Of a DNA stretch of 64,000 bases, positions 3,977-62,291 are shown piece by piece. Numbering within the stretch: the stretch's first letter is position 1; each line of letters begins with the position of its first letter. A model generated the notes under the pieces. It was not told the DNA's origin. It worked only from the letters and a program-made list of their open reading frames with translations, and did not search any database. Source of the DNA: Roseibium aquae. Its GTDB lineage: Bacteria; Pseudomonadota; Alphaproteobacteria; Rhizobiales; Stappiaceae. The stretch covers positions 496,001 to 560,000 of the forward strand of contig NZ_VXDC01000001.1 of assembly GCF_008711285.1 (NCBI RefSeq), written 5' to 3'. Made by a program: the position numbers and the translations under genes.

Positions 3977-4169
3977 GGGCGGCAATATGGTCCGAGTCCG
4001 GGCGGGAGGAAAGGGGGCTGCTACAGGAAAGCAAGTGGTTTCCTGACAGAACCTGTCACTTGATTTTTTCCCCGGGGCTCCTGCCCGAAGGTGACCGCCT
4101 GGAGATTCCCGTTGCGTGCCTGAAGCGCCACCCAACCGCCCGGTGCCTGCTGTTTTAAGCGTGCACCTA

Positions 4170-9256: not shown

Positions 9257-9257
9257 T

Positions 9258-10220
9258 TCACCGGCCGGGGCCGGACCCGGTTTGGTCGGCGAGGCACAGC
9301 CCGTACTGCTCGTTCATGGCGGCCCGCAATCCAGGATCGAACGGGTCGTCCAGCAGGGGCTCCCACGTGCCGGCTGCCTTCAGGCCGCTGATGGTGCACT
9401 GGCATGCGGCCGCGCAGTCAAGCGCGGCGCCCTCGGTGCGCTGGCAGCTTTGCGTGCAGGAGGTCTTGAACTGGGTGGTCGCGCGATCTGGCAGGACACC
9501 GATCCAGATGGGCAGATACAATAATCCGAATAGAATTGGCTGGTGCACGAGATAGATGAGAAGAGACCGGCGGCCCAGCATCCGCAGCCCGCGTCCGGCC
9601 CGGGTCTCCATGGAAATGCCCGCCAGGCGGGGCCGCAGCCGCCGCCAGAGCGGACTTTGCGCAACGGCGACACCCAGAAACAGAACGCCGCTCCACGGCG
9701 CCACCGGAACATAGTCGACGCTGCCGAAATCGGGCGTCCCCAAGCCGGTCCAAAGCCAAGCCTGACCGTTAAAGACATAGCTGCCCGCCCACAGCGGCAG
9801 CGTGAGCATCACGGCGGATGCGGCAAGGCTGATCAGCCAGGGTGCCTGAAGCAGGGGAAGCGCAAGCAGGCCGCTCAGGAATATCGCATGAAGAATGCCG
9901 AAACGGACAAAGCTGTCGCCGAAGACGAAGTAGGTGCCAAGGCTGACCCCTACGGCCGCGAACAGCAAAACCAGCTTTGTTCTGGCGAGCGCTTTCCAGC
10001 GGATCCCGGTGCCATGGGCCAGGACCAGCGTCACGCCGGACAAGAACAAGAAACTGGCGGCGATGCCACCGGCGAATGCCCGCCATCCGGAGCCGGTGGC
10101 GACAGGCCAGCCGACCAGGCCGAACCAGCTCAGGTCCCAGGAGAAATGGTAAACAACCATCGCGATGATGGCGATGCCACGGGCGCCATCAAGTGCGACA
10201 AGCCTTTTTGTGCGGGCCAA
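9258..10220 (-). CDS. DUF1624 / heparan-alpha-glucosaminide acetyltransferase-like membrane protein
   Basis: The 320-residue polytopic protein begins RLVALDGARGIAIIAMVVYHF and continues SFLFLSGVTLVLAHG, the signature of the DUF1624/YeiB-like acyltransferase-related membrane family. Seven to eight hydrophobic segments are visible. The last 60 residues are hydrophilic with several cysteines (CTQSCQRTEGAALDCAAACQC), which is unusual for the family. The only plausible initiation codon is TTG at 10220. The frame is open upstream just eight codons to the TGA that ends the 41-codon ORF at 10245-10370. That ORF is in the same frame, so the two are either translationally coupled or halves of one ancestral gene. 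Function unknown. Confidence 0.7.
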   Translation of the reverse strand: MARTKRLVALDGARGIAIIAMVVYHFSWDLSWFGLVGWPVATGSGWRAFAGGIAASFLFLSGVTLVLAHGTGIRWKALARTKLVLLFAAVGVSLGTYFVFGDSFVRFGILHAIFLSGLLALPLLQAPWLISLAASAVMLTLPLWAGSYVFNGQAWLWTGLGTPDFGSVDYVPVAPWSGVLFLGVAVAQSPLWRRLRPRLAGISMETRAGRGLRMLGRRSLLIYLVHQPILFGLLYLPIWIGVLPDRATTQFKTSCTQSCQRTEGAALDCAAACQCTISGLKAAGTWEPLLDDPFDPGLRAAMNEQYGLCLADQTGSGPGR

Positions 10221-13171: not shown

Positions 13172-14647
13172 TCAGCGGCTGCGCAAGAACGCTTCGATCT
13201 GCGAGTTCGACTGCTTGATACCGTCAACCTGGGCGACAATCTCACGAACGCCGCGCGCGTGCACCGTGGTTGTCTCGCTGGCGTGCGTCACTCCGGAAAT
13301 CGCCCGCGCGACTTCCTGGGCCGCGGCGTGCTGCTGGGTCATGGAGGCGGCGACGGCGGCCGAATGCTCGTCCATGTTGGCAATCACACCCATGATCGAC
13401 TGGATCGCGGTCAGCGCCTCGGTGGTTTCCTTCTGCATGGCCTCGATCTGGGCGCCGATCTGGTCTGTTTCGCGCGTTGTTTGCTCGGAGAGTTCCTTCA
13501 CCTCCGCTGCGACAACCGCAAATCCGCGTCCCGCATCTCCGGCGCGGGCGGCTTCGATCGTCGCATTCAGCGCCAGCAGCTTGGTTTGATCGGCAATGGC
13601 CTGGATTGTTGCCATCACGGACCCGATTTGCTCGGACGCCGCTTTGAGTGTGCTGATTTGCCCGGCCGCCGACTGGGCCCGGTTAAGCGCATCACGGGAA
13701 ATCTTGGCCGCTTCGTCCATACGGTTTGAGATTTCGGAAATCGAGGCCGTCATTTCTTCGGCAGCGGAGGTGACCGAGGTTGCCTGGCTCTTGGCCGAGT
13801 CCGCGATTGTGATCATCTCCCCGGCGGTATGGGTCAGGCCGTCGGCAATGCCGTTCATGGCCTCAACCACACCGGTTACCTGTTCGGCGACTTGAACCTG
13901 ATCCGAGATCACCGACCACGTCAGCATGGGGCCAAGATACCCGCCGCTGTCGTCCATGATCGCCGAAATGTCGAGGCGCAAATACTCGGGACCGAGTTTG
14001 ATGTTCGCCCGCCAGGGGAGCTTTGACGGGTCCTTCAGGATCCGTTGCTGGTGTCCCGGGTTCTTGTGAAAGATGTCGATGGACTGGCCCCGAAGCTCGG
14101 ACGCGCGAATGGGCAAATGTTCCTCGAGCGGTTGGAGCGTTTTGATGCTCGTCTCATTGACATAATTGATCTTGAACGTGTCCGGGTCACAGGTCATCAC
14201 ATTGATCGGCATCTTGTCGATCATCTGCAAGAGCCGCTTCGCCTCGCGGTCCGCTTTCACCTTTTCGGTGATGACATTCCAGACAAGAACAGCCTTGTGG
14301 TAGGTCCCTTTCGAGTCAAAGAGCGGCGAGATGTTCAATTCGAGGACCTCTTCCCCGAGATTGATTTTGGCTTCGTGCGGCAGGTTTTTTGCGTCCGCCA
14401 ACAGACGCCTCTGATGTGTCGGATGCTTGTGAAAAACGTCGATCGACGTTCCCACGATCGTGTCCGCCGAGACCGAGAGCAGATGCTCGATCGTGCGCAG
14501 CAGTTCGATGGACGCCCGGTTCGCGTAATCTATGCGGAAGTCCTTGATGTCACATGTCATCACGGCTGTGGGAAGGGCGTCCAGAACACCGGTTGCCTCA
14601 AAATTGGCGGACTTCATCAAGCCCAGGCCAGAAAACATTTTGCTCAT
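13172..14647 (-). CDS. Soluble methyl-accepting chemotaxis protein with two PAS domains
   Basis: The 491-residue protein lacks membrane segments. Two tandem, internally similar PAS modules lie at about residues 20-135 and 140-255; each contains an ID(V/I)FHK(H/N)P segment followed by H-Q-(R/Q)-R. The signalling domain follows with [18 protein letters not shown] and the hairpin tip [26 protein letters not shown] proteins of this type commonly bind heme or flavin, or sense redox. The cofactor cannot be deduced here. The ATG at 14647 has AAAGGA upstream and is preferred to one nine codons earlier. It ends IEAFLRSR with no CheR-binding pentapeptide. Confidence 0.92.
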
Positions 14648-15002
14648 GACGGATCGGGTCCTTTCGACACCCACGAGGACGGCGTGTCTCGGTGTTTGGA
14701 TGTGGTGGTTTTGCGCGTATCGAATGATCGCGGCTCAGCGCTCAAAAACCACGGACTTGGCTACGTCAAAATCCCCAAATGGGAAGGGGCGTCCCGCCAA
14801 ATTTTCTATCGTGAAAATTCTTTTAAACGATCTTGATAAACCTATATTCACCTAAAAAAATAAGTAAAATATCTCGAATTTAGGGTTTTTATTTAAAAAT
14901 ATTGGGATTACTGCAGTTGAAGCATTCAATATACATCCGAAATTGTCCCCTTGTTATCTCGCTGTAGCGAGCGCACCGCTGGGCGAAAACTGACAATAAC
15001 CG
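14648..15002. other. Intergenic region, partly AT-rich
   Basis: This 355-base gap separates the start of the double-PAS chemoreceptor from the end of the stand-alone PAS gene. The part from about 14805 to 14945 is strikingly A/T-rich compared with its surroundings. It probably holds the chemoreceptor promoter, but I cannot pick out convincing -35/-10 boxes. No gene is supported. Confidence 0.5.
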
Positions 15003-15497
15003 TCAAATCTGGAACAGTCCCGGCACTTCATTCTCTGTTGACGGGAGGCGGGGTTTAAACCGGGTTGCAAGACTGTTGCCGGGACGACCCCTGCGGCGCA
15101 CCGCTTCGCGTTCAAACGCGATGAAACCGGCCAAGCTGCCATTGTCCGACAACAGCGGACGGACATCCACCTCGCAATAGTAGAGTTCACCGCAGCCGCG
15201 ACGGTTCTTGATGACCCCCTGGAACCTCTGCGCTTTCCGCAAGCTCTTGCCGAAATCCCGGAGGGTTGACGAGCTGGTTTCCCGGGTCTGGAGCATGCGC
15301 GGAGAGCGGCCGATAATTTCGGTCCGCTCAAATCCGGTCATCTCCGTGAAGGCGCGATTGACGTAGCCGATCCATGGTCCGGGGTAGTCCAGTTCCGCGT
15401 CCGTAATCGCCACCGCTGTGTTCAAGGTCTCCGCCATCGAGATCAAGAGTTCAATGTTCGCGATCTTCAGCATCGGGGTTGGAAGAGGGAAATTCAT
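15003..15497 (-). CDS. Stand-alone PAS (LOV-like fold) protein
   Basis: The 164-residue protein contains one PAS_9/LOV-like domain: AVAITDAELDYPGPWIGYVN, then FTEMTGFERTEIIGRSPRML and ETSS, then a strand region ending GFIAFERE. In true LOV photoreceptors the segment after the Gly-Arg is N-C-R-F-L-Q with a flavin-reactive cysteine. Here the equivalent is S-P-R-M-L-Q, so the cysteine is absent and classical adduct photochemistry is not expected. No output domain follows, only a basic tail. It may be a protein-interaction or redox sensor module related to the neighbouring PAS chemoreceptor. Confidence 0.75.
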   Translation of the reverse strand: MNFPLPTPMLKIANIELLISMAETLNTAVAITDAELDYPGPWIGYVNRAFTEMTGFERTEIIGRSPRMLQTRETSSSTLRDFGKSLRKAQRFQGVIKNRRGCGELYYCEVDVRPLLSDNGSLAGFIAFEREAVRRRGRPGNSLATRFKPRLPSTENEVPGLFQI

Positions 15498-15626
15498 GGA
15501 TCGTTAATCTTTTCCAATGGCGAAAGGCCGCTGTTTCGTGGAAGCGCCGATGATGCTTGATGGAAATAAACGAAAGCTTAAGACTTTTGACGGCCTGTGG
15601 ACCTACCGAAAAAACAGGACAAGCCA

Positions 15627-15863
15627 ATGTTCAAAGATACTCGCTGTGCACACCCCCCGGCCTACACACCGGGCAATTCCATCATGTGTGAGGACATGGT
15701 TGGAAACGGACTTGCCGGACAGTTTTCCAAACTCGAAAACGACGGGAACAACATGCGCGACCAGGCGGAGCGGATACGTGTTCTGGTTGAGCGCCTGAAG
15801 TCCAACGCGTTCGTCAACCAGTGTTCGGAGCTGTTGCAGACGGTTCAGCGCTCGACGAAGTAG
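15627..15863 (+). CDS. Small hypothetical protein (78 aa)
   Basis: The product starts MFKDTRCAHPPAYTPG and has a polar, probably helical C-terminal half (DQAERIRVLVERLKSNAFVNQ). AGGA lies eight bases before the ATG. A strong intrinsic terminator follows 43 bases after the stop, which suggests that a short transcript ends here. No family is recognised; the alternative is that the transcript is an untranslated small RNA. Confidence 0.45.
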   Translation: MFKDTRCAHPPAYTPGNSIMCEDMVGNGLAGQFSKLENDGNNMRDQAERIRVLVERLKSNAFVNQCSELLQTVQRSTK

Positions 15864-49289: not shown

Positions 49290-50160
49290 TGGCTATCGTG
49301 CCGTTGGTGGAAGGCGCTTGGCGGGTCCGCGACCGCAAGCGCGGCAGGAAATAGGGGGTATGGGCGCGATAGGCCTCGAATTCGGCGCCGAACATCCTTG
49401 TATAGCGCCGCTCTTTCAGAACCGGTGCGCACACGCAATAAAGAGTGAGCAGGCTGGCCAGCAGGAGCTGGTCCGGGGTCCAGGTCGGTACCGTCCACAG
49501 GGTCAGCGTGAAGGACAGATAGATCGGATGGCGCATGACGGCGAACAAGCCGGCGGATGGCATGGGCGGGAATTGGGGCCGTACCCCGCGCGCCAGCGAG
49601 GCCCAGCCCAGAAGGCCGCTTTGGACTTCCGCGCCGGCATCGAACGAGGCCTTGATCAACAAAAGCCAGCAGGCGCCGTAGAGAAGCCCGAACAGCCAGA
49701 GCAGCGCGCCTTCCGCCTGCCACCAGACGATGCCGCTTGGCGTCCAGAACACGAACAGCAGGCCAAGCTGGATGGACGCGACAAGGGCATAGGTGGTCGT
49801 CGCGAGGGTCTTGCCGGTGCCCGCCGGGGCGAGCCCCGCAAGAACCTTGCCGCCCGTCCGGGTCAGCAAAAAGGAATGGCCGAGCGGGAACTGGGCGATC
49901 AGTGCGGCGTTGACGAACCAGCCCCAGGGACTGGGCACGGCGCCCAGGCTCCTGGACATGCCGAACCACATGGCGGCGATCATGGCCAGAACGGCAAGAC
50001 CGAACATTGCATGGCACAGGCCACCATACACAAGCGCTAGAGCGAGGTCGCGCCTGGTTTGGGCCGCGGATCGCGGCACCGGATCGGCGGTCATCGCGCG
50101 GCGCAGGGGCGGAAAGGCCTTGAGCAGCGACAAAAGGCTTCGCACGGCAGGCCGGCTCAT
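49276..50160 (-). CDS. Isoprenylcysteine-methyltransferase-like (ICMT/NnrU/MddA-type) membrane protein
   Basis: The 294-residue protein has six or so membrane segments and the conserved C-terminal block of the ICMT-like family: AVMRHPIYLSFTLTLWTVPT, then LKERRYTRMFGAEFEAYRAH. The combination W-x-x-P followed by W-T and L-L-L-A resembles methanethiol S-methyltransferases (MddA), which make DMS from methanethiol, but lipid or other thiol methylation is equally possible. The GTP-like G-T-G-K-T run in a loop is not a P-loop in context. It overlaps the SDR by four bases and the photolyase-like gene by 14, giving one tightly coupled operon. Confidence 0.72.
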   Translation of the reverse strand: MSRPAVRSLLSLLKAFPPLRRAMTADPVPRSAAQTRRDLALALVYGGLCHAMFGLAVLAMIAAMWFGMSRSLGAVPSPWGWFVNAALIAQFPLGHSFLLTRTGGKVLAGLAPAGTGKTLATTTYALVASIQLGLLFVFWTPSGIVWWQAEGALLWLFGLLYGACWLLLIKASFDAGAEVQSGLLGWASLARGVRPQFPPMPSAGLFAVMRHPIYLSFTLTLWTVPTWTPDQLLLASLLTLYCVCAPVLKERRYTRMFGAEFEAYRAHTPYFLPRLRSRTRQAPSTNGTIANDPA

Positions 50161-50993
50161 CCGTTGCGGCGTTGCAAGCTAGCGGACAGATCCAGTCCGC
50201 GTTTCAGGCCGCCGGCAAAGGCGGCGCGCAGATCGGCGGCGGGCTGCAAGACGCGGCCGGGCCCTTTTTCGACAATGAGCGTGCGCCTTTTGCCAAGCGC
50301 ATCGAGCGCCTTGCGGGCCACTTCGGCCGGGTCCATCGCGCCGGGCAGGTCTCCGCCGGAAAAACCCGCCGTGCGGCCGAAGCCGGTTCGGGTCGCCCCC
50401 GGGCAAACGCACAGGACGTCCACGGGCTCCGGTCCGAGCTCGGCGGCAAGCGCTTCACTGAACGACAGCATGAACGCCTTGGTGGCCGCATAGACCGCCA
50501 GTTTCGGCACGGGCACGAACGCGGCGGAACTGCCCATCAAGATCAGTCCGGCCGGGCGTTTGGACGTTCTGGCCCGGTCCGTCATGCCGGGCAGAAGCGC
50601 ATGGGTCAGCGCGATAACGGCGGACAGATTCAGCTCGACGGTCTTGAGATGATCCTCCACCGAGCGCTCCAGGAAGCTGCCATAGCTGCCCATCCCGGCA
50701 TTGGCGATGACAAGGTCGACGCTGGCTGCCTCGGCCGCGTCGATGACGGCGGCGCGCCCGTCGGCCTCCGTCAGATCCGCTTCTACCAGGCTTACCGATC
50801 TGCCCTGGGCCTCCAGCTCAATCTGGACGTTGGCGAGCGAAGCTGCGTCCCGCCCGGTGAGCACGAGATGGGTTTCACGGGGCAGGGCCCGTGCGAAGGC
50901 TTCGCCAATGCCGCGGCTCGCGCCGGTTATCAGGGCTGAGGTCGGAGCCTTGCGCTTTCGTTTGCAGATCGTCATGACGTGGCCTTTCCGCAT
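50157..50993 (-). CDS. Short-chain dehydrogenase/reductase
   Basis: The 278-residue classical SDR has the cofactor motif SALITGASRGIGEAFARAL, the structural NAG in DLVIANAGMG, the catalytic serine segment LILMGSSAAFV and the YxxxK motif in AVYAATKAFM, and then CPGATRTGFG. An Arg a little after the second beta strand (LTGRDAAS) suggests NADP(H). Substrate unknown. ATG at 50993 has AGGAG four bases upstream; ATG at 50975 also has AAAGG. It is the first gene of the SDR-methyltransferase-photolyase unit and starts 75 bases after the TRAP large permease stop on the same strand. Confidence 0.85.
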   Translation of the reverse strand: MRKGHVMTICKRKRKAPTSALITGASRGIGEAFARALPRETHLVLTGRDAASLANVQIELEAQGRSVSLVEADLTEADGRAAVIDAAEAASVDLVIANAGMGSYGSFLERSVEDHLKTVELNLSAVIALTHALLPGMTDRARTSKRPAGLILMGSSAAFVPVPKLAVYAATKAFMLSFSEALAAELGPEPVDVLCVCPGATRTGFGRTAGFSGGDLPGAMDPAEVARKALDALGKRRTLIVEKGPGRVLQPAADLRAAFAGGLKRGLDLSASLQRRNG

Positions 50994-51068
50994 ATGTCTC
51001 CTGACATCTACGCGCAAAGGCCGCATCGGGATTGCTTCTGCGTCAGCGTGACCACATCGGCGTGGCGG

Positions 51069-52619
51069 TCAGTACAGCAAGCGTGGCAGCCAGGTCGCGA
51101 TGACCGGGAACGCCCACAGGATCGCGACAGCAACGATCTGCAGTCCGATAAAGGGCACAACACCCCGGTAGATCTGGCCGGTGGTGATTTCCCTGGGTGC
51201 CGCGCCGCGCAGGTAAAACAGCGAGAACCCGAAAGGCGGCGTCAGAAACGAGGTTTGCAGGTTCACCGCGATCAGGACCGTGAGCCAGATCGGGTCGATG
51301 CCCATCAGGATCAGCGGCGGGATCAGGACGGGCAAAAGGATCACAGAGATTTCCACGAAGTCCAGGAAGAAACCGAGCACAAAGACAAACAGCATGGCGA
51401 AAATCAGCGCCCCGGTCGGCCCGCCAGGCATGTCCTTCAGGATCTCGTGCACGCGGTCTTCGCCGCCAAGGCCAACGAAGACGAGGCTGAAGAAGCTCGC
51501 CATCAGGATGGTCGCGAAGATCATCGAGGTGACGGTCAGAGTCGACAGGAGCGAGGCTCTCAGAAGCCCGGCCTTGAAGGCCGCGGTGAGAATGCGCAGC
51601 ACAACGCCCAGGGCAAACAGGGCGAGACCGGCGTAACCTGCGGCCAGAACATAACCGGCAGGCGTGACATCCGAACGCTGCAGCCGCACGGGAAATGCAG
51701 CGGCGGCGAAAGCGAGAACAATCAATGCGGCGGTGGCCGCCAGAATAAGCCTGGGCGAAATGCCGAGCCTGCGGCCGGCCAGAAGGATCGCCCCGATCGC
51801 GCCGACCGAGGCGGCTTCGTTCGGCGAGGCGATGCCGCCGAGGATGGACCCCAGAACGGCGACGATCAACAGGATGGGCGGCACGATGGCACTGGCGATT
51901 TCCACGGCCGAGGGCTGCTCGACATTTTCCCGCATGGCGGGCGCGTCGTTGGGAAAAAGCCAGGCGCGCAGGACGATGTAAGCGCAGTAGACGGCCACCA
52001 GCAGCAGTCCGGGCACCATGGCGGCGGCAAAGGTCTGGCCGACGGAGATTGTCTCGATCGAGAACTTGCCCTGTGCGTATTGCGCTTGCTGAAAGGCGTT
52101 GGACATCACGTCGGCAAGAATGATCAGGAGTGTCGATGGCGGAATGATCTGGCCCAGCGTTCCCGCCGTGCAGACCATGCCGGAGGCGAGTTTCGGGTCG
52201 TAGCCATTGCGCAGCATGGTCGGAAGGGCAATCAGTCCCATGGCCACGACGGTCGCGCCGACGATGCCGGTCGAGGCGGCAAGCAAGGCGCCGACCAGAA
52301 CCACGGACACTCCGAGCCCGCCGCGCATACGGCCGAACAACCGGCCCATGGTCTCCAGAAGGTCTTCCGCGATCCGGCTTTTTTCCAGGATGACGCCCAT
52401 CAGGACAAACAGGGGTATGGCGGTCAGCACCGGATTGGTGAGCACTCCGAAAAAGCGCTGGCCCATCGCGCCCATGAACTGGATCGAGAAATCGCCCAGA
52501 GCCCAGCCCAGCAGTGCGAAGCCGGTCGCAACCCCCGCAATGGTAAAGGCAACCGGATAACCCATCAGGATGAAGGCGATCAGGGCGCCGAACATGATCA
52601 AATCGAGGGGAAGGGTCAT
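51069..52619 (-). CDS. dctM: TRAP transporter large permease (DctM)
   Basis: The 516-residue protein has about 12 to 14 membrane helices and the DctM signatures: MGYPVAFTIAGVATGFALLG, VLTAIPLFVLMGVILEKSRI, GATVVAMGLIALPTMLRNGY and GMVCTAGTLGQIIPPSTLLI. It is the ion-coupled permease of a tripartite ATP-independent periplasmic system, taking substrate from the DctP binding protein. A loop of about 60 residues near 290-350 is a little longer than usual. Its start overlaps the dctQ stop by four bases. It is the last gene of a run that begins at hutI. Confidence 0.93.
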   Translation of the reverse strand: MTLPLDLIMFGALIAFILMGYPVAFTIAGVATGFALLGWALGDFSIQFMGAMGQRFFGVLTNPVLTAIPLFVLMGVILEKSRIAEDLLETMGRLFGRMRGGLGVSVVLVGALLAASTGIVGATVVAMGLIALPTMLRNGYDPKLASGMVCTAGTLGQIIPPSTLLIILADVMSNAFQQAQYAQGKFSIETISVGQTFAAAMVPGLLLVAVYCAYIVLRAWLFPNDAPAMRENVEQPSAVEIASAIVPPILLIVAVLGSILGGIASPNEAASVGAIGAILLAGRRLGISPRLILAATAALIVLAFAAAAFPVRLQRSDVTPAGYVLAAGYAGLALFALGVVLRILTAAFKAGLLRASLLSTLTVTSMIFATILMASFFSLVFVGLGGEDRVHEILKDMPGGPTGALIFAMLFVFVLGFFLDFVEISVILLPVLIPPLILMGIDPIWLTVLIAVNLQTSFLTPPFGFSLFYLRGAAPREITTGQIYRGVVPFIGLQIVAVAILWAFPVIATWLPRLLY

Positions 52620-53119
52620 TTGGTGGCGACCTTGAGGCGGAGGATGTCACGGAAAAGCGCGGCGAGGCCCTGGATCAGAAGCAGAACGCAATAGGCCGGT
52701 ATGAGTGACTTCAAGAGAAAGGAGGCGGGGATGCCGCCGACCGAGATCGGGCCTTCCAGAATGGCCCAGCTGCGGGTCACCGTGGGCCAGGAGTAGATCA
52801 GCAGCACGACCAGCGCCGGGGCGAGGAGAAAAAGATGACCGAACAGGTCGATCCAGGCCTGCCGCCGTTCTGTCATTTTGGCATAGAAGATATCCACCCG
52901 AACATGGGCGTTGACCAAAAAGGTATAGCCGGCGCCGAGCATGAAGATCGCGGCGTGAAAGTACAAAACGCCTTCATCCAGAAAGATGAAGCTGTACCCG
53001 AACACATAGCGCAAAAGCACGATCCCGAACTGCAGCAAGAGCATGCCAAGCGCAGCCCAGCACATGACATGACCGATGGCGAAGTTGATCCGCTCCAGCG
53101 CTCCCGCCAGTTTATCCAT
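52616..53119 (-). CDS. dctQ: TRAP transporter small permease (DctQ)
   Basis: The 167-residue protein has four membrane helices: FAIGHVMCWAALGMLLLQFG, GVLYFHAAIFMLGAGYTFL, FLLAPALVVLLIYSWPTV and LIPAYCVLLLIQGLAALF. DctQ supports DctM. The pattern, and the motif NAHVRVDIFYAKMTERRQAW in the loop, are standard for the family. It overlaps dctM and lies 212 bases downstream of dctP, a gap containing a palindromic repeat and a stem-loop. Confidence 0.9.
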   Translation of the reverse strand: MDKLAGALERINFAIGHVMCWAALGMLLLQFGIVLLRYVFGYSFIFLDEGVLYFHAAIFMLGAGYTFLVNAHVRVDIFYAKMTERRQAWIDLFGHLFLLAPALVVLLIYSWPTVTRSWAILEGPISVGGIPASFLLKSLIPAYCVLLLIQGLAALFRDILRLKVATK

Positions 53120-53248
53120 CGCGGTTGGTTCCTGTTTTCACATGCCGCCTCGCCGCCACCCGCGGCCGGGTCCAAGCCTGCCCGCAGCGCAATGGGGCGA
53201 AATCCAAATCGGGATCTCAGCCAATGGCGGAGACAACGGATTGGGCCG

Positions 53249-53268
53249 CATGGTCAAGCCATGGGATG
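53249..53268. repeat. Distant copy of the palindromic repeat core
   Basis: The bases CATGGTCAAGCCATGGGATG are identical to 136-155. It sits in the 212-base gap between dctP and dctQ, inside the predicted transcript, and is the only close match to the 1-860 cluster that I found elsewhere in the window. Confidence 0.7.
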
Positions 53269-53292
53269 TCTGTTTGGCCGAACGCCAAGCTT

Positions 53293-53321
53293 GGATAACC
53301 GCAGTGGATCTGCGGTTATCC
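53293..53321 (-). terminator. Stem-loop between dctP and dctQ
   Basis: GGATAACCGCA pairs with TGCGGTTATCC around a seven-base loop, starting about ten bases after the dctP stop on the minus strand. There is no T-run. Such hairpins after the binding-protein gene of transporter operons often stabilise the upstream mRNA so that the binding protein is made in excess; that role is inferred. Confidence 0.65.
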
Positions 53322-53331
53322 TATTGGGGCA

Positions 53332-54429
53332 TCAGTTGTACTGATAGTCCAGCAGCCGGGCGTTCATCTGGCCATTGTCGGCATAGGGCATGTAGCTCTT
53401 CATCAGTTCCCGGTAGCTCAGGAAACTTTCGGTGATGCGCTTGACCAGTTCATCATCGTCCGCGCGCAGGTCGGCGATCACTTCGCCGGCGGCATTGCCC
53501 ATGGCGATGATCACGTCGTCCGGCAGCTTGCGCACCATCACGCCGTGCTCGGAGACCAGTTGGCTCAGCGCTTGGGCGTGCTTGGTGTTGTACTCTGTCA
53601 GGACATCGTTGTAGAGGCTGGCGCAGGCCTGGCGCACGGCTTCCTGCAGGTCGGCCGGAAGGGCGTTGAAGGTTTCCAGGTTCACCGCGCATTCCTCGGC
53701 CGAAGACGGCTCTCCGACCCCTGGCCAATAATAGTTCTTGGCGATCTGGTAGTAGCCAAGGGCGCTGTCGGTCCACGGACCGATGAACTCGCCCGCATCC
53801 AGCGCGCCCGATTGCAGGGCCTGGAACATCGCCGGGCCGCTCATGGCCTGAACCGCCATGCCGAGCTTGGTGCACATTTCCGAGGCCAGGCCGGTGGAGC
53901 GGAACTTGAGGCCCTTCAGGTCATCGACGCTGTTGATCTCGTTGCGGAACCAGCCGGCCCATTGCGGTCCCGAGTTGCCGCACAGGAACGGCTTCAGATT
54001 GAACCGGGCATAGATTTCGTCGTAGAGCGCCTGCCCGCCGCCATGGATGAGCCAGCCGGCCTGTTCCGGTGCCGTCAAACCGAAAGGCTGGGATCCGAAC
54101 AGCAGGATGCCCTTGGACTTCGAGCCCCAATAGGCCGGAACCGCATGATAAAGATCGGCGGTGCCTTCCCCAACCGCGTCGAAGACGCCGTTGCCGGGCA
54201 CGATCTCGCCGGCGGCAAACAGTTTCACCTCGATCCGTCCGCCCGACAGCATGGTGATCCGGTCAGCCAGCAACTGGGCCGCAACGCCCGGGCCCGGCAG
54301 GTTCTTCGGCCATGCGGTGACCATGCGCCACTGGCGGATGTCCTGGGCGATGGCCGGCGCGGCGAGCGCGGTTGCCGCCGTGGCGGCGGTTCCAGCGACG
54401 CCAGCTTTCAAAAAGTCCCGTCTTTTCAT
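53332..54429 (-). CDS. dctP: TRAP transporter substrate-binding protein (DctP)
   Basis: The 365-residue protein has a twin-arginine signal (MKRRDFLKAGVAGTAATAAT, cleavage after AIAQ). The mature part carries VTAWPKNLPGPGVAAQLLAD, FDAVGEGTADLYHAVPAYWG, KFRSTGLASEMCTKLGMAVQ (the Arg expected to hold a substrate carboxylate) and SGALDAGEFIGPWTDSALGY. The spacing resembles 2-oxoacid/mannitol-type TRAP binding proteins (TakP group). It lies only 50 bases downstream of hutU, same strand, so a substrate in histidine metabolism is likely from context. Tat export suggests folding before secretion. Confidence 0.9.
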   Translation of the reverse strand: MKRRDFLKAGVAGTAATAATALAAPAIAQDIRQWRMVTAWPKNLPGPGVAAQLLADRITMLSGGRIEVKLFAAGEIVPGNGVFDAVGEGTADLYHAVPAYWGSKSKGILLFGSQPFGLTAPEQAGWLIHGGGQALYDEIYARFNLKPFLCGNSGPQWAGWFRNEINSVDDLKGLKFRSTGLASEMCTKLGMAVQAMSGPAMFQALQSGALDAGEFIGPWTDSALGYYQIAKNYYWPGVGEPSSAEECAVNLETFNALPADLQEAVRQACASLYNDVLTEYNTKHAQALSQLVSEHGVMVRKLPDDVIIAMGNAAGEVIADLRADDDELVKRITESFLSYRELMKSYMPYADNGQMNARLLDYQYN

Positions 54430-54479
54430 TGTCTTCCCCTCGTTTCAAGGTTGATGGCAAGAAGCTGTCCGGCCGTGGG

Positions 54480-56153
54480 TTATCTCCCAAGAATACCCGG
54501 CAGGTTGAGCCCCTGTTCTTTCGCGCAGTTCAGCGCGATCTCGTAGCCGGCATCGGCATGGCGCATCACGCCGGTGGCCGGATCGTTCCACAAAACCCGT
54601 CCGATCCGCCGGTCGGCATCTTCGGTGCCGTCGCAGCAAATCACCATGCCCGAATGCTGGGAAAAACCCATGCCGACGCCGCCGCCATGGTGCAGCGACA
54701 CCCAAGTCGCGCCGGAGGCTGTGTTCAAAAGGGCATTCAGGAGCGGCCAGTCGGACACGGCGTCCGACCCGTCCTTCATCGCTTCCGTCTCCCGGTTGGG
54801 GGAGGCGACCGAGCCGCTGTCCAGATGATCGCGGCCGATCACGATCGGTGCCTTCAACTCGCCGGTGCGGACCATCTCGTTGAAGGCAAGGCCGAGCCGG
54901 TGGCGCTGGCCGAGCCCGACCCAGCAAATCCGGGCGGGCAGGCCCTGGAACGAGATCCGCTCCCTTGCCATGTCCAGCCAGTTGTGCAGATGCGCATCGT
55001 CGGGAATGAGTTCCTTCACCTTGGCGTCGGTCTTGTAGATGTCTTCCGGGTCGCCGGAGAGCGCGCACCAGCGGAACGGCCCGATGCCGCGGCAGAACAG
55101 CGGCCGGATATAGGCCGGCACGAAACCCGGAAAGGCGAAGGCGTTTTCCAAGCCCTCTTCCATCGCGACCTGGCGGATGTTGTTGCCGTAATCGAGCGTT
55201 GGAACGCCTGCATTCCAGAAATCGACCATCGCCTGTACATGGACCTTCATCGAGGCGCGGGCAGCTTTCTCGACCGCTTTTGGATCGGTTTCAGCCTTCC
55301 CGCGCCATTCGGCGACGGTCCAGCCCTGTGGCAGATAACCGTTGACCGGATCATGCGCCGACGTCTGGTCGGTGACAATATCGGGCTTGACGCCGCGCTT
55401 CACGAGTTCCGGGAAGATATCCGCCGCATTGCCGATCAGGGCGACGGATTTGGCCTCGCCGGCCTTGGTCCAGCGGCCGATCATCTCCAGCGCCTCGTCG
55501 AGCGAATGGGTCTTTTCGTCGACATATTTTGTGCGCAGGCGGAAGTCGGCGCTTTTTTCATCGCATTCCACAGCAAGGCAGCAAGCTCCGGCCATGACCG
55601 CGGCAAGCGGCTGGGCGCCGCCCATGCCGCCGAGCCCGCCGGTCAGGATCCAGCGGCCTTTCAGGTTGCCGTCATAATGCTGGCGGCCCGCTTCCATGAA
55701 GGTTTCATAGGTGCCCTGCACGATTCCTTGCGTGCCGATATAGATCCACGAGCCCGCGGTCATCTGGCCGTACATGGCCAGGCCTTTCTTGTCGAGTTCG
55801 TGGAAGTGATCCCAGTTCGCCCAGTTCGGCACCAGATTGGAATTGGCGATCAGAACGCGCGGGGCGTCCTTGTGGGTCTTGAAGACACCGACCGGCTTGC
55901 CGGACTGCACCAGCAGCGTCTCGTCGTCTTCCAAAGACTTGAGGCTGGCTACGATCCGGTCGAAATCCTCCCAGGTGCGCGCGGCCCGACCGATCCCGCC
56001 ATAAACCACCAGCTCATGCGGGTTTTCCGCGACATCCGGGTGCAGGTTGTTCATCAGCATCCGCAAGGGCGCTTCGGTGAGCCAGGACTTGGTGTTGAGG
56101 TCGGTGCCGGTCGGCGGAAAAACGTCACGGGCGTTGTGGCGGCGGTCAGCCAT
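54480..56153 (-). CDS. hutU: Urocanate hydratase
   Basis: HutU converts urocanate to 4-imidazolone-5-propionate with a tightly bound NAD+ as electrophile. The 557-residue protein has the family length and contains [20 protein letters not shown], the Gly-rich [17 protein letters not shown] and [20 protein letters not shown]. The C-terminal [20 protein letters not shown] is also conserved. The start at 56153 gives [11 protein letters not shown] and has AGGAAA upstream; an earlier ATG at 56201 lies within hutG. It overlaps hutG by eight bases. Confidence 0.96.
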
Positions 56154-56979
56154 GGGTGGTTTCCTCGGATGTCTTTTTGTGTGGCTTAAGCGCGGGCGCA
56201 AGATCGGCCAGCGCGAACAGAATGGTTCTCAGATGGCCCCGCAGACGCTCGGCCTTTGCCTCGTCATAGGCAAAGGGCGTGTCCTCGGTGGCAAGGTGGG
56301 TCGATTGGGCCAGTTCCATCTGGATGGCGTGGATGCCGGTGTCCGGCCGGCCATAGTGGCGGGTCGTCCAGCCGCCCTTGAAACGGCCGTTCAGGATCGA
56401 GGTGTAGCCCGCAGCGTTACTGGTCAAATCCACGACCGCCTGTTCGATCTCTGCTGCACAAGTGGTGCCGCCATTGGTGCCGGTGTTGAAGTCCGGCAGC
56501 GTGCCCTCGAACAGGTACGGCACTTTGGAACGGATCGAATGGCAGTCATAGAGGATTGCGATGCCGTGTCTGGCGCGCACGCGCTCCAGCTCGGCCTCGA
56601 GCGCGGCGTGATAGGGCGCGTGCCAGGCGAGCCGCCGGGCTTGGATTTCGTCTGAACCCGGCTCCTTGCCGTCCAGATAGATCGGGCAGCCATCGAAATC
56701 CGTTGTCGGGCACAGCGTGGTGGTGTTCTGGCCGGGATACAGGCTGGCATCTTCCGGGTCCCGGTTGGCATCGATGACATAGCGGTGGAAGTTGGCCTTC
56801 ACCATGGTCGCGCCGGGCAGCAGGCCAGTATACAGCCGATCCACATGCCAGTCGGTGTCTGCCAGCTTATGGCCAGTTTCGTTCAGGTTAGCCCAGATCT
56901 TTTCCGGCACGAAGGTGCCCGCATGAGGAACGCCCAGAACGACCGGGCTGTCGCCGGGGATGATCTCAACGGGCTGCAT
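56146..56979 (-). CDS. hutG: N-formylglutamate deformylase (amidohydrolase)
   Basis: HutG hydrolyses N-formyl-L-glutamate to glutamate and formate, the last step of the five-step route. The 277-residue protein has [60 protein letters not shown] and [20 protein letters not shown], matching the FGase (N-formylglutamate amidohydrolase) family with its metal-binding His and Asp residues. It is not the arginase-type formiminoglutamase also called HutG elsewhere. Overlaps hutH by 14 bases and hutU by eight. Confidence 0.93.
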
Positions 56980-58522
56980 GCGGCACTCCCAGCTTGAACA
57001 GGTGATCTTCCGACAGAACCGAGACCAGCGCGCGCGCGCGCAAAAGCCCAGCGGCCGTTTCCAGATCCGGCGCCAGATACCGGTCTTTCGTCAGCGGAGC
57101 GACCGAAGCGCGCAGTTTTTCGATGACGGATTGAAGCGCCGGGCTGGTCTTGAGCGGCGCCCGGTGCTCGATGCCTTCAACCGCGCAGAGCAACTCGACG
57201 CCCAGAATATGCGCAAGGTTGGCCGTCATGCGCAGAAGGCGGCGCGCGCCGTGGGCGGCCATGGAGACATGGTCCTCCTGGTTTGCGCTGGTCGGTGTGG
57301 AGTCCGTCGAACAGGGATTGGCGAGGTGCTTGTTCTCGCTCATCAAGGCAGCCGTGGTGACCTCGGCGATCATCATGCCGGAGTTCAGGCCCGGATCCTT
57401 GGCCAGAAACGGCGGCAGATCGAACGACAAGGCCGGGTCGACCATCAGCGCGATGCGGCGCTGGGCAATGGCGCCGAGTTCGGCAATTGCAAGGGCGATC
57501 TGGTCGGCGGCAAAGGCGACCGGCTCGGCGTGGAAATTGCCGCCGGAGACGATCCGGTCCGCCTCGACCAGCACCAGCGGATTGTCGGTGGCCGCATTCG
57601 CCTCGATTTCCAGCGTGGTGGCCGCCATGCGCAGAAGATCGACACAGGCCCCGGCCACCTGCGGCTGACAGCGGATACAATAGGGGTCCTGGACGCGGGT
57701 GTCGCCTTCCCGGTGGCTTTCGCGGATTTCTGAACCCTCCATGATGCCGCGCATGGCGCTTGCGACTTCAATCTGGCCCCGGTGGCCGCGAAGCTCATGG
57801 ATTTCGGCCAAAAGCGGCGCGGTCGAGCCCATGATGGCATCGGTGGACAGACTTGCGGTGACCAGCGTTGCTTCCGCCAGCCGCCAGGCGTCGAACAGGC
57901 CAACCAGCGCGCAGGCTGTCGAGAATTGCGTGCCGTTGATCAGACCGAGGCCTTCCTTCGGGCCGAGGACAACCGGTGTCAGACCCGCGCGTTTCAAGGC
58001 TTCCCCGCCGGACACGCGCTCGCCTTCGAACTCGGCTTCGCCTTCGCCGATCAGCGCAGCGGTCATGTGGGCCAGCGGTGCCAGATCCCCGGAGGCACCC
58101 ACCGAACCTTGCGAGGGCACCACCGGGGTGACGCCTTTGTCCAAACAGTCCTCAATCAACTTCAAGACCTCGAACCGGACGCCGGAGGCACCCCGGCCAA
58201 GCGAGAGCAGTTTCAGGACCATCATCAGCCGGGTGGTGGCGCGGTCGAGCGGCTCGCCGACGCCGCAGCAATGGGACAGGATCAGATTGCGCTGCAACGT
58301 GGCGGTGTCTTCCGCCGCGATCTTGACGCTGGCCAGCTTCCCGAAACCGGTGTTCACGCCGTAAACCGCCTCGCTGCCACGGGCGGCCTCAGCGACCCTT
58401 TGCGCGGCCAGATTGATGGCCGCTTCCGCCGAACGGTCGATCCGGACGGAGCGTTCGTCGCGGTAAACCACCTCCAGATCGGCCAGGGTGGCGGATCCCG
58501 GGGTGAGGGTAAGGGCGCTCAT
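56966..58522 (-). CDS. hutH: Histidine ammonia-lyase
   Basis: HutH eliminates ammonia from L-histidine to give trans-urocanate. The 518-residue protein contains the MIO-forming triad Ala143-Ser144-Gly145 in [15 protein letters not shown], the upstream [11 protein letters not shown], and downstream LALINGTQ-like [16 protein letters not shown]. The C-terminal [15 protein letters not shown] is typical. The start at 58522 overlaps hutI by four bases. The gene is first in the chain hutH-hutG-hutU after hutI, so HutH and HutU levels are coupled. Confidence 0.97.
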
Positions 58523-59724
58523 TCAGAGCCTCCAAAAATGCGTTTTTCCAGGGAGTTGAAACCGATGCGGTAGCTGAGCTCGGCCGGATGGGCGACGTTC
58601 CAGACTGCCAGATCCGCGCGCTTGCCGGTCTCCAGCGTGCCGCGGTCGGTCATGCCCAGAGCCTTGGCCGCCTCGCGGGCTACGCCCGCAAGGGCTTCTT
58701 CCGGTGTCATCCGGAACAAGGTGCAGCCCATGTTCATGGTGAGCAGAAGGGAGGCGAGCGGCGAGGAGCCCGGATTGCAATCGCTGGCAAGCGCCATCGG
58801 AACGGTGTGCAGGCGCAGAAGATCGATTGGCGGGGCCTGGGTTTCCCGCAGGGTGTAAAACGCGCCCGGCAGGATGACGGCGACGGTGCCGCTGGCGGCC
58901 ATCGCCCTGACGCCCGCCTCATCGAGATATTCCAGGTGATCGGCGGACAGCGCGCCATAGGACGCGGCAAGCGCGGTGCCGCCAAGGTTCGACAGTTGCT
59001 CGGCATGCAGCTTCACCGGCAGGCCGAGGCCTTTCGCCTTTTCGAACACACGGGCGATCTGCTCCGGCGAAAAGGCGATGCCCTCGCAAAATCCGTCGAC
59101 AGCGTCGACCAGACCTTCGGCGTGGGCCGCTTCCAGAGCGGGCAGGCAGATGTCCTCGAGATAGGCGTCCGCCCGGTCTTTGTAGTCTGCAGGGACCGCA
59201 TGCGCGCCGAGAAACGTGGTGCGCACGGTGATGGGCCTCAGGTCCCCGATCCGGCGGGCAACCCGCAGCATCTTCAGTTCTGTGTCCCGATCCAGGCCGT
59301 AGCCCGATTTGATCTCGAGAGCGGTGACGCCTTCGGCGATCAGCGCGTCGGCGCGGGTTAGTGCGCCGTCCAGAAGTTCGTCTTCGCCGGCATCCCGCGT
59401 CGCCTTGACGGTGGAGACAATGCCGCCGCCTGCGCGCGCCACTTCTTCGTAGGTCGCGCCTTCGAGCCGCATCTCGAACTCGCGCGCCCGGTTGCCGCCA
59501 AAAACGAGGTGCGTGTGGCAATCGATCAACCCGGGCGTAATCAGGCGCCCGCCGAGGTCTTCCTTTGGAAAACCGGCAAAGGCCTCAGGCAATCCTGTTG
59601 CCGGGCCCGAATAGGCAATCGTTTCTCCGTCGATGGCCAGAACGCCGTCTTCGATCAAGCCATAGGCCTCGATGCCATGGATGAGGGTTGCCAGTCTGGC
59701 GTTCGTCAGCAGGCGCTGTGGCAC
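58519..59724 (-). CDS. hutI: Imidazolonepropionase
   Basis: HutI opens the imidazolone ring to N-formimino-L-glutamate. The 401-residue amidohydrolase has the metal site [20 protein letters not shown], the FKSGYGL-type segment [40 protein letters not shown] and [18 protein letters not shown]. The start is GTG at 59724 with GGGAGA six bases upstream. It is the first gene of the minus-strand run hutI-hutH-hutG-hutU-dctP-dctQ-dctM and is preceded by a strong promoter-like sequence with an overlapping palindrome. Confidence 0.95.
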
Positions 59725-59759: not shown

Positions 59760-59789
59760 ATAATATGCATGCACATATTAACGTGTCAA
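59760..59789 (-). promoter_or_regulatory. Candidate hutI promoter with overlapping HutC operator
   Basis: On the minus strand TTGACA (59784-59789) and TATTAT (59760-59765) are 18 bases apart, close to the sigma-70 consensus. The perfect palindrome TAATATGCATGCACATATTA (59761-59780) has arms TAATATG and CATATTA around CATGCA and covers the -10 box and most of the spacer. It lies between hutI and hutF, in the right place for repression of both by the GntR-type HutC encoded alongside. Confidence 0.7.
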
Positions 59790-59806: not shown

Positions 59807-61198
59807 ATGCCCACGGCGCAGGACACCATCCTTTTCGCAGATAAGGCGCTGCTTCCAGACGGGTGGGCGGACAATGTCCGCGTTGATATTTCCGCTGATG
59901 GCCGGATTTCGGCTGTTGAACCGGATGCCCGTCCCGCCGGGCAGCAGCAAGCCTGCAACGCCGGAATATTGTTGCCGGCGCCGGCCAACTTGCACAGCCA
60001 TGCCTTTCAGCGCGCGATGGCCGGGATGAGCGAGCGCCGCGGCCAGGAAACCCGCGACAGTTTCTGGACCTGGCGGCAGATCATGTTCCGCTTTCTCGAC
60101 ACCTTGACACCGGAGGATGTCGAGGCGATTGCCGCCTTTGTTCAAATGGAAATGCTCGAAGCCGGATATGCGGCCGTCGGTGAATTTCACTATCTCCACC
60201 ACCGGCCGGGCGGAGCGCCTTACGACCATTTGGCCGAGATGTCCGAGCGCATCGCGGCGGCGGCCAGCCAGACGGGCATCGGCCTGACCCTGTTGCCGGT
60301 GCTTTACAGGTACGGCGGCTGCGACAAGCGCCCGCTGGCGCCGGGCCAGATCCGGTTCGGCAATGATTTCGACCGGTTCCAGAAGCTGCATGATCAGGCG
60401 GGCGGCGTTTTGAAGGCATTGGACGGCGATGCCGTTCTGGGCGTTGCCCCGCATTCGCTGCGCGCGGTGGATGCGGATAGCCTTCAAGATGCCGTCTCGC
60501 TGGCCGGGCAAGCGCCGGTGCACATGCATCTCGCCGAGCAGGTCGCCGAGGTGGAAGAAGTTCTGGCGGCCACCGGTAAACGGCCGGTCGACTGGCTTTT
60601 GGACAATCATGGGGTCGGCGGGACCTGGTGTCTCATTCACTGCACGCAGATGACACCGGAGGAAACGCGGAGCCTGGCAGCCACGGGAGCTGTTTCCGGC
60701 CTCTGCCCGATCACGGAATCGAGCCTCGGCGATGGCATCTTCGACGGGGTGCGGTTTCTGGAAGCGGGCGGCCGGTTTGGCATCGGATCGGACTCCAACA
60801 TCCGCATTTCCCTGTCCGAGGAGTTGCGCACTCTCGAATACTCCCAGCGTTTGCGCGACAAATGCCGGGCCTCGGTGGCAACGCCTGAAAAATCCACGGG
60901 CCGGGTCTTGTTCGATGGCGCGGCCGCAGGCGGGGCGCAGGCCTGCGGCCGGGCATCCGGGCAAATCGGAGCCGGCTATTTCGCCGATCTCATCGCGCTT
61001 GATGCCAATGCGATCGACCTGGAAGGCCGTGACGGCGACGAGATCCTTGATGCCTTTATCTTCGCGGGCGACGACCGGATGGTGCGGGACGTCTGGTCGG
61101 CGGGGCGGCATGTCGTTGCCGGCGGGACTCATGTAAAAGGCGAAGCGATCCGGGACCGCTACCGGTCCACCATGAGAGCGCTGCGCGCCCGCCTTTGA
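59807..61198 (+). CDS. hutF: Formimidoylglutamate deiminase
   Basis: HutF hydrolyses N-formimino-L-glutamate to N-formylglutamate and ammonia. The 463-residue amidohydrolase contains LLPAPANLHSHAFQRAMAG with its zinc ligands, WTWRQIMFRFLDTLTPEDVE, GVAPHSLRAVDADSLQDAV, and MHLAEQVAEVEEVLAATGKR. Near the end is GRFGIGSDSNIRISLSEELR. Together with HutG this defines the five-step branch (formylglutamate route) of histidine degradation. The ATG at 59807 has GAGGGAAT upstream. It is divergent from hutI and overlaps the hutC frame. Confidence 0.94.
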   Translation: MPTAQDTILFADKALLPDGWADNVRVDISADGRISAVEPDARPAGQQQACNAGILLPAPANLHSHAFQRAMAGMSERRGQETRDSFWTWRQIMFRFLDTLTPEDVEAIAAFVQMEMLEAGYAAVGEFHYLHHRPGGAPYDHLAEMSERIAAAASQTGIGLTLLPVLYRYGGCDKRPLAPGQIRFGNDFDRFQKLHDQAGGVLKALDGDAVLGVAPHSLRAVDADSLQDAVSLAGQAPVHMHLAEQVAEVEEVLAATGKRPVDWLLDNHGVGGTWCLIHCTQMTPEETRSLAATGAVSGLCPITESSLGDGIFDGVRFLEAGGRFGIGSDSNIRISLSEELRTLEYSQRLRDKCRASVATPEKSTGRVLFDGAAAGGAQACGRASGQIGAGYFADLIALDANAIDLEGRDGDEILDAFIFAGDDRMVRDVWSAGRHVVAGGTHVKGEAIRDRYRSTMRALRARL

Positions 61199-61215
61199 AA
61201 CGGAGCCGACATCCC

Positions 61216-61917
61216 GTGACCTTGACCGACACAAATTCATGGACCGGGATCCGCGAGGAGCTTTTGCGCCGGATCCACGACCGGATCTGGGAGCCGGGTT
61301 CGCAGATCCCGCATGAAGCCGATCTGGCGGAGGAATTCGGTTGCGCGCGCACGACCGTGAACCGGGCGCTCCGCGATCTTGCCGAAAGCGGTCTCGTCAT
61401 CCGTAAGCGCCGGGCCGGTACACGGGTCGCGCTCAATCCCCCTCAACGGGCGACGTTGACCATCCCGATCATCCGTGAGGAAGTGGAGGCACTGGGCAAG
61501 ACCTACCAGCACAGCCTTCTGGAACGCGCCTGTCAGCCGGTCCCTCCGATCCTTCACGGCGTGTTTCATGCCTCGCTCGGCGAGGATGTCGTTTATCTGA
61601 AAACCCTGCATTTCGCCGACGACCGGCCTTACGCGTTCGAGGAACGCCACATCAATCTGAAGGCTGTTCCAGAGGCGCGCGCGCGCAAGTTCGAAGTTTC
61701 AAGCGCGAATGAATGGCTGGTGCACAACGCGCCTTACAGCCGGGGCGAGCTGTCTTTTTCGGCGCTCAACGCCAGTGACGAAACGGCCCAGATCCTTGAC
61801 TGCACCCCGGGGACCGCGCTTTTTTCCATGGAACGGATTACATGGATGGGCGAGGAGCCGATCACCCATGTGAAACTGATTTTTGCCCCCGGTTACCGCA
61901 TGCACTCCGTCATCTGA
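61216..61917 (+). CDS. hutC: GntR-family regulator of histidine utilisation (HutC)
   Basis: The 233-residue repressor has the GntR winged helix (PHEADLAEEFGCARTTVNRA, LAESGLVIRKRRAGTRVA) and a UTRA effector domain (VYLKTLHFADDRPYAFEERH onwards). HutC normally represses hut genes and releases DNA on binding urocanate. The frame is open back to a TTG at 61195 that overlaps the hutF stop. GTG at 61216 is preferred because the product then starts MTLTDTNSWTG and GGAG lies upstream. The candidate operator is the palindrome at 59761-59780. Confidence 0.9.
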   Translation: MTLTDTNSWTGIREELLRRIHDRIWEPGSQIPHEADLAEEFGCARTTVNRALRDLAESGLVIRKRRAGTRVALNPPQRATLTIPIIREEVEALGKTYQHSLLERACQPVPPILHGVFHASLGEDVVYLKTLHFADDRPYAFEERHINLKAVPEARARKFEVSSANEWLVHNAPYSRGELSFSALNASDETAQILDCTPGTALFSMERITWMGEEPITHVKLIFAPGYRMHSVI

Positions 61918-62027
61918 AAAACCTCAAGTTGCAACCGCGCTGCAATCAATCTGACGTTTCGTCATGTTTCTCCGTTCTGTATTCTTGCGGTGTATTGCGG
62001 GCCGGGAGGGCAAGCTGGGAGGGCAAC

Positions 62028-62291
62028 ATGCGCACAGCAAGCAAGCAAACACGGACAACAGAGATCGCGCCGGGGCTTTATGCCAATGTCGACCACATTG
62101 TTTTGGACGGCATGGATCGGCAAGGCGTCGACTATGTGGCCGAAGTGGTCTGGTTGAGCGACGCCGAGGGCAATCGCAAGGGCAGCTTTTATTGTTCCTG
62201 CACCTCCGGAGACTGCAGCAAGAGCGCCTATTGCGACACCGGAATTGAGGTGAACTGCGACTGTATACGGTGCACGTTCAGTTGTTCCTGA
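62028..62291 (+). CDS. Small cysteine-rich protein (87 aa), unknown
   Basis: The first 53 residues are ordinary and polar (TEIAPGLYANVDHIVLDGMD, VAEVVWLSDAEGNRKGSFY); the last 32 contain eight cysteines at positions 56, 58, 63, 69, 77, 79, 82 and 86 mixed with Ser, Thr, Asp and Gly. A GGGAGG Shine-Dalgarno lies seven bases before the ATG, so translation is likely. No hydrophobic signal sequence is present. The pattern could be a metal-binding (metallothionein-like) tail, an Fe-S or disulfide-rich tail, or the core of a modified peptide with a leader; no modification, protease or export gene is adjacent. Not recognised. Confidence 0.65.
   Translation: MRTASKQTRTTEIAPGLYANVDHIVLDGMDRQGVDYVAEVVWLSDAEGNRKGSFYCSCTSGDCSKSAYCDTGIEVNCDCIRCTFSCS

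Follow-up and report, generated by a model that had tools for sequence, protein, structure and literature searches.

What does a TRAP transporter import when its genes are built into an operon for histidine utilisation (hut)? The question is raised by a 64,000-nucleotide stretch of Roseibium aquae (contig NZ_VXDC01000001.1, positions 496,001 to 560,000; hereafter the window), in which dctP, dctQ and dctM, encoding the binding protein and the two permeases of a TRAP system, follow the urocanate hydratase gene hutU. Comparison of this locus with its relatives suggests that these genes likely represent a hut-dedicated TRAP subfamily whose cargo is an imidazole carboxylate of the hut pathway, and urocanate is, with moderate confidence, its most likely cargo. 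This answer draws on gene content, conserved adjacency to hutU, exchange of the transporter with an ABC system in the same operon slot, the distribution of HutC-type operators, the residues of the DctP binding pocket and the loss of histidase in two genomes. The genes are arranged as follows, in window coordinates:

58519..59724, minus strand: hutI, imidazolonepropionase (TIGR01224, 460 bits, cut-off 298)
56966..58522, minus strand: hutH, histidine ammonia-lyase with the motif GSVGASGDL (TIGR01225, 695 bits, cut-off 539)
56146..56979, minus strand: hutG, N-formylglutamate deformylase (TIGR02017, 368 bits, cut-off 279)
54480..56153, minus strand: hutU, urocanate hydratase (TIGR01228, 966 bits, cut-off 375)
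53332..54429, minus strand: dctP, TakP-like TRAP solute-binding protein (Pfam PF03480, TakP alignment, AlphaFold model)
52616..53119, minus strand: dctQ, TRAP small permease (PF04290, 67 bits, cut-off 28)
51069..52619, minus strand: dctM, TRAP large permease (TIGR00786, 282 bits, cut-off 268; PF06808 above cut-off)
59807..61198, plus strand: hutF, divergent formimidoylglutamate deiminase (TIGR02022, 568 bits, cut-off 413)
61195..61917, plus strand: hutC, divergent histidine utilisation repressor (TIGR02018, 257 bits, cut-off 220)

The GSVGASGDL segment of HutH is presumably the catalytic motif that holds the methylidene-imidazolone (MIO) triad, and the hutU start is an ATG inside a listed TTG open reading frame. 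As the DctP, DctQ and DctM families (PF03480, PF04290, PF06808) all score above cut-off, a complete TRAP set is encoded together. The first-pass annotation of this DNA had described overlapping hut genes with dctP close behind, and its values hold to the base: 4 bp for hutI/hutH, 14 bp for hutH/hutG, 8 bp for hutG/hutU and a 50-bp gap from hutU to dctP, with dctQ and dctM then downstream. Between dctP and dctQ lie 212 bp, the ends of dctQ and dctM share 4 bp, and hutI and hutF are separated by an intergenic gap of 82 bp.

The genome search for hutU-dctP adjacency that had been proposed alongside this description found the arrangement conserved. In a family sample of 87 genomes, with DctP called at E <= 1e-110, DctP occurs in 57 and a hutU match in 76, one of the latter (in G291) being fragmented and excluded from the typed list. 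Of the 57 DctP-bearing genomes, 56 have hutU and dctP on one strand, with 49-180 bp between the end of the hutU match and the dctP start; in the remaining one, DctP starts 85 bp from the edge of its contig. No family genome carries dctP without hutU, and 18 carry an intact hutU without dctP. A wider scan, with each GTDB species represented by one genome, gave 326 relatives, the best 80 of which were studied. Among these 80, hutU lies 5' of dctP on the same strand within 250 bp in 57 and at 251-1000 bp in 3, a further 7 loci have other hut enzymes and 4 a HutC-like gene only, giving 71 hut- or hutC-linked loci; in one of them (L033) dctPQM sits between hutG and hutU. The closest named relatives belong to Roseibium/Labrenzia, with one 'Stappia sp.' (DctP 88-92% identical), and by record title the arrangement recurs in many Alphaproteobacteria and some Gammaproteobacteria of this set. 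An even sample of the class (289 genomes, lower-identity rows being a selection with 40 places fetched) has hutU above cut-off in 75 and a DctP of at least 60% identity in 6, namely three directly behind hutU, two beside a HutC-like gene (L089, L090) and one near neither (L091). Seven plasmid records also match, and six of them were examined: the TRAP genes accompany hut genes on Marinovum algicola pMaD4 and on a Pseudorhodobacter plasmid, and a HutC-like (GntR) gene on plasmids of Ruegeria sp. TM1040, Leisingera, Pseudosulfitobacter and Tritonibacter. That a TRAP operon merely happens to lie behind hutU, as a neighbourhood without function, could be suspected from the abundance of TRAP genes (11 DctP matches in the window's genome, the hut-linked DctP included); the family counts and the 71 of 80 loci, rearranged forms included, make this extremely improbable, and chance was ruled out as the origin of the neighbourhood.

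Relatives that lack the TRAP genes indicate what may stand in their place. Of the 18 family genomes with hutU and no TRAP, 13 were fetched for a gene-level view, and in six of these (L100, L102, L106, L107, L110, L111) a polar-amino-acid ABC transporter, with SBP_bac_3 binding protein, permeases and ATPase, is found 3' of hutU. Nine of the 87 family genomes contain its binding protein at 60% identity or more, and none of the nine belongs to the 57 with TRAP genes, so that the 18 divide into 9 with the ABC system and 9 with neither transporter. By coordinates, eight of the nine copies are close behind hutU and one is on another contig; the window's genome has a distant match only (34% identity). 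In one relative (G344; L110) a class I/II aminotransferase gene (7747-8850) separates hutU from the ABC genes. The two transporters are thus non-homologous machineries occupying the same operon slot in the same family, never together in one of the 87 genomes at this identity. In a tree of HutI, HutH and HutU, which includes six of the nine ABC genomes and from which L012 was dropped as a stretch without hut genes, these six fall in two separate places, suggesting that exchange happened at least twice rather than as nine independent events. Since the ABC form occupies only these two places, Fisher tests of the exclusion (p 4e-7 over 75 hutU genomes, 1e-7 over 42 in the genus; data not independent) are not relied on. 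The exchange itself lends weight to a different cargo, in which the TRAP system would carry L-histidine, as the slot-sharing ABC system presumably does, with urocanate acting as intracellular inducer only; this is possible, if rather doubtful on the evidence from histidase given below.

The control of the locus points in the same direction as its gene order. Two elements are predicted in the gap between hutI and hutF:

59761..59780, no strand assigned: HutC-type operator TAATATGCATGCACATATTA, a palindrome predicted by shared motif, fitting WTATG-N6-CATAW of hut promoters
59760..59789, minus strand: sigma-70-like promoter facing hutI, TTGACA-18-TATTAT, which the operator overlaps (consensus scan only, 11 of 12 bases agreeing)

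Two features of a HutC regulon, the repressor gene within the unit and a predicted HutC-type operator at the promoter, are present at the locus. Consensus scans, the only kind applied, revealed no promoter- or terminator-like site in the 50-bp hutU-dctP gap, and the simplest reading is a single transcript running from hutI to dctM. An exact WTATG-N6-CATAW motif was found in 51 of the 70 divergent hutF-hutI regions, with 0.16 expected from order-1 Markov resampling. Loci in which dctPQM is detached from hutU and accompanied by hutC or a HutC-like gene have the motif upstream of dctP, exactly in 8 of 9 and with one mismatch in the ninth, and it is missing from all 56 hutU-dctP gaps with one mismatch allowed. 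TakP-like controls unrelated to hut have it exactly in 0 of 46 and with one mismatch in 1 of 46. The motif was chosen after part of these sequences had been seen, and the fresh data are the six plasmid loci, where it is exact in three of four detached loci, has one mismatch in the fourth and is absent from both attached ones. The regulators of detached loci score above the TIGR02018 cut-off in five of six tested, the sixth falling 0.7 bits short. In Pseudomonas the published operator core of HutC is TGTA-N2-TACA (PMC12977541), which is included in many of the WTATG-N6-CATAW sites, and the response of Pseudomonas HutC to urocanate is described as established (PMC8871633, PMC12977541). Because adjacency is conserved, the slot is exchanged with an ABC system and detached copies beside hutC bear the operator, the TRAP genes can be assigned to the hut unit, as had been proposed for the window.

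The binding protein offers the most direct view of what may be carried. DctP is homologous (~32% identity) to TakP (SmoM), the binding protein of a sodium/alpha-keto-acid TRAP system of Rhodobacter sphaeroides (PDB 2hzk, 2hzl), and its AlphaFold model (predicted local distance difference test score, pLDDT, 88.4) shows the TakP-type fold, with 4yic, 4yzz, 2hzl, 7ug8, 5cm6 and 4pet as top structure matches. The suggestion that the RSTGLASEM segment supplies the ligand arginine is borne out by alignment, in which Arg177 coincides with TakP Arg177, described as binding the substrate carboxylate (PMC1839085), and is invariant in 54 aligned sequences. The cation and carboxylate residues Gln156, Arg177, Glu214, Glu240 and Tyr100 of TakP are all retained; Trp215, which makes its contact through the main chain in TakP (PMC1839085), is Phe in DctP. 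The difference lies in the side-chain pocket, where Tyr99 is replaced by Ala or Ser and Val245 by Glu in the hut clade (Ala99 and Glu245 in the hut-linked DctP of the window), and the hydrophobic pocket of TakP is not maintained. Ala/Ser99 with Glu245 is seen in 85 of 85 hut-type DctPs, the window included, in 6 of 6 plasmid copies and in the hut-linked L092 at 60% identity, and in just one of the 57 rows of lower identity, which are a selection; the DctP tree was built without eight rows that were duplicates, partial or distant. A pocket of this composition suits an imidazole ring, as judged from sequence. Import of an end product or unrelated acid (glutamate, 2-oxoglutarate, pyruvate or lactate), co-regulated for convenience, would agree with the ligands of solved relatives, which bind 2-oxo acids (TakP, PMC1839085; 7ug8) or lactate (2zzv, 2zzx). 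This explanation is quite unlikely given that the residue pair is specific to the hut clade, that the genes adjoin hutU and that detached copies beside HutC-type genes have HutC-type operators.

The retained cation site introduces a complication. In TakP the cation is described as being held partly by the alpha-keto oxygen of the substrate (PMC1839085), and urocanate has no alpha-oxygen, so the conserved site counts against urocanate and would favour an acid substituted at the alpha position (histidine, imidazolelactate or imidazolepyruvate, for example). Imidazolelactate or imidazolepyruvate, as an imidazole acid that possesses an alpha-oxygen and is made into histidine after import, would fit both the full set of kept residues and the change of the side-chain pocket to Ala99/Glu245. 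Nevertheless, neither a dehydrogenase nor an aminotransferase gene was seen to be conserved beside hut-TRAP loci, in an inspection that was not a systematic search, and the short-chain dehydrogenase/reductase gene 3' of dctM in the window (50157-51026) was rejected as a member of the unit, having no close homologue beside dctM in other loci. Such a route would also require histidase, which is missing from the two genomes described next, and it is considered unlikely. For L-histidine, the alpha-amino group could replace the keto oxygen of the TakP substrate. Amines, on the other hand, coordinate Na+ or Ca2+, the ions of TakP-type sites, only poorly.

Histidase was searched for in 79 genomes carrying a hut-type DctP (or the 60% DctP of G131) and scores above cut-off in 75 of them (27 of 29 and 48 of 50 in two sets), as an importer of L-histidine would lead one to expect; the idea that TRAP genomes generally lack histidase is accordingly wrong. 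Histidase-like aromatic lyases were observed at L076, after dctM and with an ornithine-cyclodeaminase-type gene (13304-15798), and at L085, just before dctP (8030-9853). Two of the four genomes without a histidase above cut-off, both metagenome-assembled genomes (MAGs), are uninformative, with no histidase match in G422 (L038) and a histidase fragment only in G395 (L062). The other two are MAGs titled Aestuariivita. In L084 (G379) the order is hutC-hutF / hutI-hutG-hutU-dctPQM, hutG starts at the place expected for hutH (7200-7700), and the genome gives no histidase match. In L086 (G399) the hutH place holds a 380-codon frame (3816-4955) that lacks both the Ala-Ser-Gly triad and a large internal segment, the profile being unmatched from position 178 to 387. 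This frame shares 39% identity with a normal relative across 298 aligned residues, and the genome has no better histidase match elsewhere. Both have hutC, hutF, hutI, hutG, hutU and dctPQM, the hut and TRAP genes other than hutH being open frames, with a hutG match in this set that merely extends past its stop. Between the two loci, hutU and dctP have the lowest ratio of non-synonymous to synonymous change (pN/pS, 0.13), at synonymous changes near saturation. Since histidase was lost while hutU, hutI, hutF, hutG and dctPQM were kept, urocanate is favoured over histidine as cargo, and the simplest reading of L084 and L086 is a hut pathway fed by urocanate.

A dedicated importer of a hut-pathway imidazole carboxylate, with urocanate as the preferred compound, would work as follows. 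The dctPQM genes would supply a HutC-controlled uptake system for the five-step histidine/urocanate pathway. DctP, whose N-terminus is of twin-arginine type by eye (MKRRDFLK), would be exported to the periplasm and close around its ligand, with the carboxylate on Arg177/Tyr100, a cation probably bound, and the imidazole ring in a pocket to which Ala99 gives space and Glu245 an acidic character. Import by DctQM would be driven by a sodium or proton gradient, following TRAP precedent; urocanate would then feed HutU directly and, following the precedent of HutC, would lift the repression of its own hut operon. An even chance is given to the fuller proposal that this is the founding case of a urocanate TRAP subfamily, in which a TakP-type receptor was re-tooled (Tyr99 to Ala, Val245 to Glu) as an alternative to an amino-acid ABC transporter, and some lineages dropped histidase and use environmental urocanate in place of histidine.

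Several observations weigh against this account, beginning with the cation site discussed above. Cargo, transport and expression of the hut TRAP system are deduced from sequence, which by itself decides for neither histidine nor urocanate. The cases without histidase are two related MAGs, in which incompleteness is possible, and the slot exchange comprises few events, at two places in the tree. Nine of the 80 loci show no hut gene on their stretch, three of these having less than 1 kb of upstream sequence. L093 (8858-12100), a TRAP system at 52% identity, bears Ala99/Glu245 with no hut gene in the neighbourhood examined. No operator was detected upstream of dctP, with one mismatch allowed, in the 11 loci without nearby hut genes (nine hut-type loci, L093 and L094) or in six loci with hutU further upstream, and the operator of the window retains the outer arms of the motif without an exact TGTA-N2-TACA core.

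In comparison with known hut transporters, the system is similar in genetic setting and different in machinery. Those described for Pseudomonas in PMC8871633 are HutTu (an apparent urocanate permease), HutTh (histidine) and HutXWV (ABC), whose genes, like the TRAP genes of the window, lie inside a HutC-controlled hut cluster, and HutTu sets a precedent for placing a urocanate permease in such a cluster. The HutT proteins are permeases and HutXWV is an ABC system, whereas that of the window is a tripartite TRAP; by Pfam the operon's transporter genes are DctP, DctQ and DctM and not HutT or ABC, with no search made for HutT elsewhere in the genome. The HutC regulons of Leyn et al. 2016 (PMC5343134) similarly place uptake genes under HutC, with transporters of HisT, HisJMPQ, HutXYZ, HisXYZ, TonB, COG2814, COG3314 and COG1457 types. 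The main text of that study, its supplementary tables lying outside this scope, names TRAP once, for HypABC under HypR and not for HutC, and the main text of a TRAP review (PMC5812351) is without the words histidine, urocan- and imidazole. Open-access full-text searches showed no TRAP-hut link among the papers listed, and an assignment in supplementary tables or RegPrecise is possible. As known hut transporters are of HutT or ABC type and no TRAP system is given for HutC in these texts, this TRAP subfamily appears to be new in its regulon and probably in its cargo. The first-pass description of a TRAP system in a hut locus as unusual stands against the known transporters and not against genomes, where the arrangement recurs widely and a detached version beside its own HutC-like repressor gene exists.

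If this reading is true, imidazole carboxylates would be an added cargo class for TRAP transporters, and a specific name would become possible for genes now generically annotated: among the seven plasmid copies, three are called 'TRAP transporter substrate-binding protein', one 'mannitol/chloroaromatic', and three are in unannotated records. Ala/Ser99 with Glu245 would serve as a two-residue signature for finding hut-type DctPs and would illustrate a specificity switch in which one fold and one carboxylate/cation site are kept and two pocket residues change. Should the cargo be urocanate, this would indicate that it is available in free form as a nutrient in the environment, and that some lineages retain the pathway without histidase.

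The 212-bp spacer behind dctP contains one further element:

53293..53321, minus strand: hairpin GGATAACCGCAG-N5-CTGCGGTTATCC, 12 perfect pairs, beginning ~10 bases past the dctP stop

In 44 of 80 loci a perfect stem of at least 8 pairs lies no more than 100 bases beyond the dctP match, where Markov resampling would give 1.5, and the stem sequences differ among loci. Because stems recur at this position with unlike sequences, the hairpin is probably an expression-tuning element, which would hold the binding protein above the permease level.

Thiourocanate hydratase was considered as an identity for hutU and rejected, thiourocanate models scoring under their own cut-offs. In G363 (C1:708621-710222) and G374 (C1:120201-121802) a second, divergent HutU-like gene was observed (~695 bits), possibly a thiourocanate-type hydratase. 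Elsewhere in the window, an 88-codon cysteine-rich open frame with no Pfam match lies just 3' of hutC (62025-62288), and the product of 48030-49289 matches a DNA photolyase FAD-binding domain over residues 88-218, its only Pfam match.

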